Shown here: piece by piece, positions 63,067 to 63,788 of the stretch | Position numbering within the stretch: position 1 is the first letter of the stretch | Layout of the letters: every line of letters starts with the position of its first letter | Origin: Acidobacteriota bacterium | Lineage (GTDB): Bacteria; Acidobacteriota; Blastocatellia; Pyrinomonadales; Pyrinomonadaceae | DNA: 64,000 nt | NCBI GenBank assembly: GCA_003223935.1 | Contig: QHXQ01000037.1 | Location: forward strand, 29,284-93,283 | Direction: 5' to 3' | Notes under the pieces: generated by a model | What the model was told of the DNA's origin: nothing | Seen by the model: the letters and a program-made list of their open reading frames with translations, nothing else | Database searches by the model: none | Translations under genes and position numbers: made by a program

Positions 63067-63072
63067 CAATAG

Positions 63073-63782
63073 TTGGGCGACGCACATAGGAATTGAGCGA
63101 TATGGTTGACAACCAATCTCCGAATAGGCGGCTTGATGCCCTATTTCGGGAGTTCGATAGCCTCGCTGCCGAAAATCGCAATGCGCTTGATGGAACCGAT
63201 AAGAAGCTGAGCATGGCCTTCGGCGTGGCGGCAACTCTTATCGCGGCTGGGCTCTGGCGCTCGGAAGCGACGTTCTTCCTGATTGTTCCGTACCTGATCC
63301 TGGCTATCGCGTTCTTCGCAGCGATACAGCTGTCGCAGGTCGTTGTCCTCGGTGCGCAACTGGCAGTTGTCGAGAAGCGCATAAACCAAGAGCTTGGGCA
63401 GCAGGTGATGAGTTACTTCAGCGTCACAGTCCTGACCGTGTGCGATGCCCCAACTCTCATCGATCCGAGAACAGGGCGTAAGCAATTCACGCTCAATGCC
63501 GTCTACACTGCGTCTGCTGCCGTCGTGTTGCTCGCAGCGATTGTGTTTTCGATTATCGAAGGATGGCAAGCGCTCATCGTGAAGGGTCGCGCTCCAATGG
63601 GATTTTACTTTGCCGGTGTGTTTGCCGCCTTTGCCATCGTAATCTGGGTCACATATCGAGCCACGAGGGCCAAACGCCTGCTCATTGAGGTGATCAAGCA
63701 AGCTCTTGCTGCGTCGCCTAATGAAGCGCTGGAGCCGCCAGCACCGACGGCTTCCGATTAAAGGTGCGGCTCAACGCTCGCG
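63073..63782 (+). mobile_element. integron gene cassette (approx. 710 bp)
   Basis: Bounded by GTTGGGC (63072-63078) and GTTAGGC (63782-63788), one ORF, attC at the 3' end overlapping its stop codon. Confidence 0.82.
63102..63761 (+). CDS. cassette-encoded multi-TM protein of unknown function
   Basis: ORF MVDNQSPNRRLDALFREFDSLAAENRNALDGTDKKL..., about four hydrophobic segments; ends inside attC. Confidence 0.8.
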   Translation: MVDNQSPNRRLDALFREFDSLAAENRNALDGTDKKLSMAFGVAATLIAAGLWRSEATFFLIVPYLILAIAFFAAIQLSQVVVLGAQLAVVEKRINQELGQQVMSYFSVTVLTVCDAPTLIDPRTGRKQFTLNAVYTASAAVVLLAAIVFSIIEGWQALIVKGRAPMGFYFAGVFAAFAIVIWVTYRATRAKRLLIEVIKQALAASPNEALEPPAPTASD

Positions 63783-63788
63783 TTAGGC
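63716..63788 (+). other. attC recombination site
   Basis: R'' GCCTAAT, L'' AGCG..GAGCCGC (63725-63738), L' GCGGCTC..CGCT (63766-63778), R' GTTAGGC; imperfect palindrome with unpaired bases. Confidence 0.85.

Follow-up and report, generated by a model that had tools for sequence, protein, structure and literature searches.

A gene cassette at a stand-alone attI-type site in an acidobacterial genome whose integron integrase lies on another contig

An integron is by definition one integrase gene (intI) with one attI site beside it, and arrays that lack intI are usually dismissed as dead remnants. Insertion of cassettes into genomes at attG sites was reportedly described by Loot et al. in 2024 (cited in PMC11023631). 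According to the standard description, each integron has one attI only (PMC3607928); the integrase, IntI, joins attC, as a folded bottom strand, to the double-stranded attI by recombination at G/TT (the slash marks the crossover), and attI and IntI are regarded as matched pairs (PMC8946536). By default, IntegronFinder 2.0 calls a CALIN (cluster of attC sites lacking integron-integrases) where at least two attCs occur without intI, and a lone attC would go unreported (PMC9024848). Extra partial attI copies are known from the delta-attI cassettes of class 1 and class 2 integrons, which are recombined by IntI1 (PMC12901181). Here we describe a single gene cassette close to the right end of a 64,000-nucleotide stretch (the window) of an Acidobacteriota genome of the family Pyrinomonadaceae (contig QHXQ01000037.1, assembly GCA_003223935.1). 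We propose, at a probability of about 0.62, that it belongs to a dispersed integron, in which the resident attI exists in several copies and the cassette stands at a stand-alone one, so that one integrase would serve many platforms.

The window is the final 64 kb of its contig (C66), which ends at window position 64000; the genome (G000) is a metagenome-assembled genome (MAG) of 5.27 Mb in 128 contigs, 88% complete. An initial annotation had proposed an integron cassette with an attC here, and the motifs on which it relied, GCCTAAT at 63716-63722, GTTAGGC at 63782-63788, and GTTGGGC at 63072-63078, as well as the stop codon of the open reading frame (ORF) inside the site (TAA, 63759-63761), were all found in the sequence where it had placed them. 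The R''/L''/L'/R' organization that it described likewise turned out to follow the canonical layout, namely R'' of 7 nt, a 5-nt spacer, 3 bp, an extra-helical G, at least 4 bp with the mirror arm, a 6-nt spacer, and R'. Both spacers and the extra-helical base are the same as in the attCs of the resident array on contig C102, and the site ranks first in a layout scan of the window. The hairpin by itself is weak evidence: the single-strand folding energy was ordinary (z of -1.3 for the bottom strand and -1.9 for the top strand), and R''/R' palindromes turned up about 0.8 times per shuffled 64 kb in a crude scan. Both measures were dropped as not discriminating, and a covariance model (R1) was therefore built from attCs of complete integrons of related genomes plus two related lone sites, the window being excluded. 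This model is decisive: with the E value computed over 202 kb, the proposed attC is its only significant match in the window (Table 1), the runner-up scoring 13.6 bits, and with filters off, on 2 kb only, it was still the top match at 15.3 bits.

The left boundary, which the initial annotation had put at 63072, is corroborated by a second genome, that of Acidobacteria bacterium 13_1_20CM_3_53_8 (G015), where a cassette gene 79% identical to that of the window occurs at a different locus (L048) and the homology begins exactly at G/TT. The junction sequences are CAATAG/TTGGGCGACGCACAT in the window and TTTAG/TTCGGCGACGCACAT in G015, and in G015 the ORF has its own attC behind it (50.2 bits with R1, of whose training set it is part). 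Homology starting from the crossover, the other locus, and the separate attC together indicate a mobile cassette met at two places. Read from its sequence, the interval 63073..63782 is an integron gene cassette bounded by G/TT crossovers. The contrary pattern named by the initial annotation, homologues sharing the same flanks without attC, was not seen, as the G015 homologue lies elsewhere with its own attC and the relatives' loci for the flanking DUF6986 gene lack the cassette.

The attC doubles, in its left half, as coding sequence of the cassette ORF, a feature that had escaped the initial annotation, and this half encodes the residues N207, E211, and P212, which are invariant in the cassette protein family. 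A reading of this half as chance coding sequence (in G015 it lies inside the ORF, whose stop is followed by another attC) was rejected because its spacing is exactly canonical and because the corresponding codons of a homologue from UBA11740 form a textbook attC left half, GTCTAACGATTCGCAGGAGCCGAC. In that homologue (L049, 10001-10669) the left half is retained in the 3' coding end and no complete attC was scored; to judge by the sequence, it is apparently a cassette gene fixed in the chromosome, with part of the attC now forming the C terminus of the protein. The protein collection contained seven homologues at 60 to 79% identity, the cassette protein's own record counted, and all named sources were Acidobacteria/Blastocatellia. 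Searches of the genome contigs for homologue loci gave none with the single protein and two with an alignment. The cassette protein had no family match in Pfam, NCBIfam, or PADLOC; it is predicted to be probably a multi-helix membrane protein, and its AlphaFold model is helical but of low confidence (predicted local distance difference test score of 51).

Also missing from the initial annotation was the sequence to the left of the boundary, where the 75 bp preceding GTTGGGC form a nested, conserved attI-type palindrome. Similar sequence separates intI from the first cassette on C102, at further intI loci of the class, and in related species, and the site ends in G/TTRRRY. A profile trained solely on 14 intI-adjacent attIs from related species (R2) gave five matches in the 202 kb, namely the C102 attI on both strands (itself a training site), the window site (14.3 bits; E, 0.011), and one site each on contigs C6 and C46. 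Profile R3, in whose training the window was included, scored the window site at 49 bits. The site aligns with attIs over about 75 bp and is 81% identical to that on C46, a match equaled by none of 2,000 shuffles. Neither intI nor a remnant of it was found upstream of this site. The possibility that the palindrome is the attC of a preceding cassette was rejected, as GTTGGGC has no R'' partner. Many attI copies carry TATAAT at their end, 9 to 10 nt before the crossover.

A search of G000 for intI, as suggested in the initial annotation, returned one gene above the integron-integrase cutoff (TIGR02249, 454 bits; cutoff, 265), located on C102 in a complete integron with seven attCs on the 5' side of intI. 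No intI is present in the window, as had been noted, and no complete integron (intI, attI, and attC) stands at this locus. At least five further stand-alone attI copies were identified in G000, of which a search with the pattern ATAATNNNTAGTTNGG first revealed those on C6 and C46, and a genome-wide attC scan those on C114 and C128. The C6 and C46 sites (92% identical to each other) have the same palindrome type and are followed by one and three attCs, respectively, without intI. Those on C114 and C128 scored 36.6 and 37.3 bits with R2, share 94 to 96% identity over 80 bp among themselves and with the C102 attI, and each head about five attCs, again without intI. The fifth, on C73 (37.8 bits with a broader attI model), has no detected attC. 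In G000, similarity between the copies and the resident attI extends over about 75 to 100 bp, the homology stopping 55 to 116 nt left of the core, and no trace of intI was found upstream of the five stand-alone copies; a candidate relic upstream of the C128 site was rejected, since 25 of 200 shuffles scored equally. Of the initial annotation's proposals, the integron cassette with an attC thus stands, while a secondary site, the edge of an array, and an In0/CALIN-type element each turned out not quite right, given an attI-type site here and the integron on another contig.

Two side observations concern the same genome. Behind the C6 attI and its first cassette (L111, 2719-3373, minus strand) lie a gene that looks PIN-domain-like by eye and a small ORF; the two may be a toxin-antitoxin pair carried by a second cassette with an undetected attC. 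Further attCs without a detected attI occur on C18 (L158, which ends at the contig edge), C13 (L161), C5 (L162), and C12 (L163), and these are ordinary CALIN-like remnants.

We then determined the distribution of such sites by running the broader attI model on 120 genomes of the same family. Sites were found in 48 of them, in several genera, and some genomes had about 10 copies. For a study of neighborhoods, 40 loci with 41 sites were retrieved; intI adjoins only three sites, the other 38 (one of them, L217, at a contig edge) being without it, and attC was detected downstream on the same strand at 22 sites and upstream at none. The nearest neighbor of a site lay within its own genome in 34 of 43 cases, against a mean of 6.7 and a maximum of 19 when labels were shuffled. 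Upstream homology was assessed for 27 copies from seven genomes, each compared with the intI-attI region of its own genome (for G062 and G066, with that of G005). In almost all of the 27 copies the homology ended no farther than about 116 nt from the core, the exceptions, which reached into intI sequence, being two copies in G062 and one in G127. The intI-less sites of G009 and G015 carry attCs; at one G009 locus (L254, contig C43, 1006-3206, minus strand) a stand-alone attI is followed by three attCs in a genome that is 98% complete and yielded no intI. At a locus of G148 (L129, contig C16, 529-1518), intI reads toward attI, unlike at the other loci; such an inversion has been published for Treponema integrons.

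The proposal of a dispersed integron is built on an attC, a cassette boundary, and an attI-type sequence without an adjoining intI in the window, on one intact intI elsewhere in the genome, and, in G000 and its relatives, on intI-less attI copies that head correctly oriented attC arrays and resemble one another within a genome. The scattered copies would be served in trans by the one IntI of the genome, that of C102, which would fold the bottom strand of the cassette attC, would recombine it with the double-stranded attI at G/TT, and would have made the insertion seen in the window. The copies would be active landing platforms, and their palindrome may provide the cassette promoter. That attI itself multiplies in this family, the 75- to 100-bp palindrome being copied without intI so that one integrase would have up to about 10 landing and expression platforms per genome, is a more tentative idea, to which we give somewhat less than even odds. 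Copying might be achieved by IntI itself, through a folded strand or through attI-ended circles that, like delta-attI cassettes, would bear part of attI; pairs of attI sites could also recombine together and rearrange the chromosome. Several observations weigh against the dispersed integron. With 64% identity to the resident attI, the window attI is the most divergent of the G000 copies; it may have no activity or may belong with a different integrase, and a consensus scan found no plus-strand promoter at it. The assembly is a MAG whose contig ends at the window edge. Two G062 copies retain 15 to 20 intI codons (in one of them 15 codons at 87%), which fits loss of intI, and in G009, G015, and G120 such sites are present with no intI detected, that is, they persist without an integrase.

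The chief rival holds that the stand-alone attIs are what is left of complete integrons after deletion of intI, so that the genome would once have had many integrons, their arrays being static today, as in the decay of CALINs. CALINs are usually taken as degraded integrons (PMC9024848), and Treponema with attCs and no intI has been published (PMC3607928). This explanation fits the G062 copies, where N-terminal intI codons are kept, but not the clean G000 copies, all five of which lack any trace of intI although the attI of two is so well conserved, nor the sharp limit of homology seen in most copies across the seven genomes; we consider it unlikely, if the most serious of the alternatives. Far less probable is that the palindrome is a repetitive extragenic palindromic (REP)-like repeat, a terminator, or an operator unrelated to IntI, which cassettes adjoin by chance. 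The sequence is indeed palindromic, several census matches stop short of the core, and 19 of the 41 sites have no detected downstream attC, yet complete integrons have this type of sequence in the interval from intI to the first cassette, and attC occurs solely downstream (22 versus 0).

It is also very improbable, slightly more so than the REP-like reading, that the cassette entered an ordinary secondary (attG) site whose likeness to attI is due to chance. Insertion by IntI at genomic attG sites is known, but these are reported to be divergent from classical att sites (PMC12901181); the window target is not, as shown by the length of its alignment with attIs, by the shuffles, and by its recovery with the independent profile R2. 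Least credible of all is an artifact of MAG assembly or binning. The fragmented and incomplete assembly, the position at a contig end, and attI copies of about 90 bp that could confuse an assembler would speak for it. On the other side, six of the attI-bearing contigs are long (27 to 99 kb) and match the rest of G000 in GC content (0.594 to 0.607) and tetranucleotide pattern, wrong joins at a repeat swap flanks and cannot add copies, the copies on C6, C46, and C66 differ too much for merging, and the pattern is found independently in several genera.

On its left the locus is flanked by a DUF6986 gene, whose stop lies 77 bp ahead of the attI core (Table 1). Homologues of this gene are present in 26 of 40 relatives, and neither this attI nor this cassette adjoined any of them among the relatives' loci. 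The ORF fragment on the right had no match in Pfam or among plasmids and is single copy in G000. Elsewhere in the window, a c-di-AMP riboswitch (ydaO/yuaA leader; 38483-38682, minus strand; 66 bits) was the sole Rfam match at the gathering threshold.

Table 1. Features of the cassette locus and its flanks (window coordinates; a slash marks the crossover)
Feature	Position	Strand	Basis or remark
DUF6986 gene, malate-synthase-like, chromosomal flank	61547..62995	+	Pfam PF22484, E 1e-187
Stand-alone attI-type site, nested palindrome, four ATAAT/ATTAT motifs, end ATAATCAATAG/TTGGGC	63000..63078	+	Profile R2
Inferred IntI crossover G/TT, cassette left end	63072..63073	+	G015 cassette homology starts here, left flanks differ
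Gene cassette, 710 bp	63073..63782	+	G/TT at both ends
Cassette ORF, 219 aa	63102..63761	+	ATG 63102; alternative TTG at 63093
attC	63716..63788	+	Covariance model R1, window left out of training: 28.2 bits, E 3.4e-5
attC parts	R'' 63716-63722; 63728-63730; extra-helical G 63731; 63732-63737 / 63767-63772; 63773-63775; R' 63782-63788		
ORF fragment, open, runs past contig end	63816..63998	-	Resemblance to insertion sequence (IS) transposase C terminus by eye, not confirmed

Should attI copies prove to be dispersed and to be used by IntI in trans, many so-called CALINs would be live outposts, and detection tools that ignore attI would overlook such sites. A genome so organized would be able to express several first-position cassettes simultaneously rather than one. 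Moreover, the attI variants that one integrase would then face form a natural series in which IntI-attI recognition could be tested directly beyond the Proteobacterial models.

Among the described systems, the sedentary chromosomal integron (TIGR02249) is like the present arrangement in attC structure, G/TT crossover, attI-type head, and cassette orientation; here, however, intI is not beside attI but on another contig, from which it would serve several attIs. With the CALIN or single-attC element of IntegronFinder 2.0 (PMC9024848) the locus shares an attC without a nearby intI, whereas the definition of that element has no attI and the window site has a recognizable one; the window shows one attC, the contig stopping 212 bp beyond it, and the CALIN default needs at least two. 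Insertion at attG sites likewise places a lone cassette in the chromosome outside an integron, but the target in the window is an attI copy of the intI-adjacent kind. Delta-attI cassettes offer a parallel in their extra attI copies, which replace the attC at a cassette end inside one array, whereas here the copies head separate chromosomal arrays. No account of a genome with multiple or orphan attI sites was found in the open-access papers searched, and an earlier one elsewhere is possible. The parts are known, and what appears to be new is their arrangement, in which several intI-less attI copies head arrays in one chromosome with one integrase.
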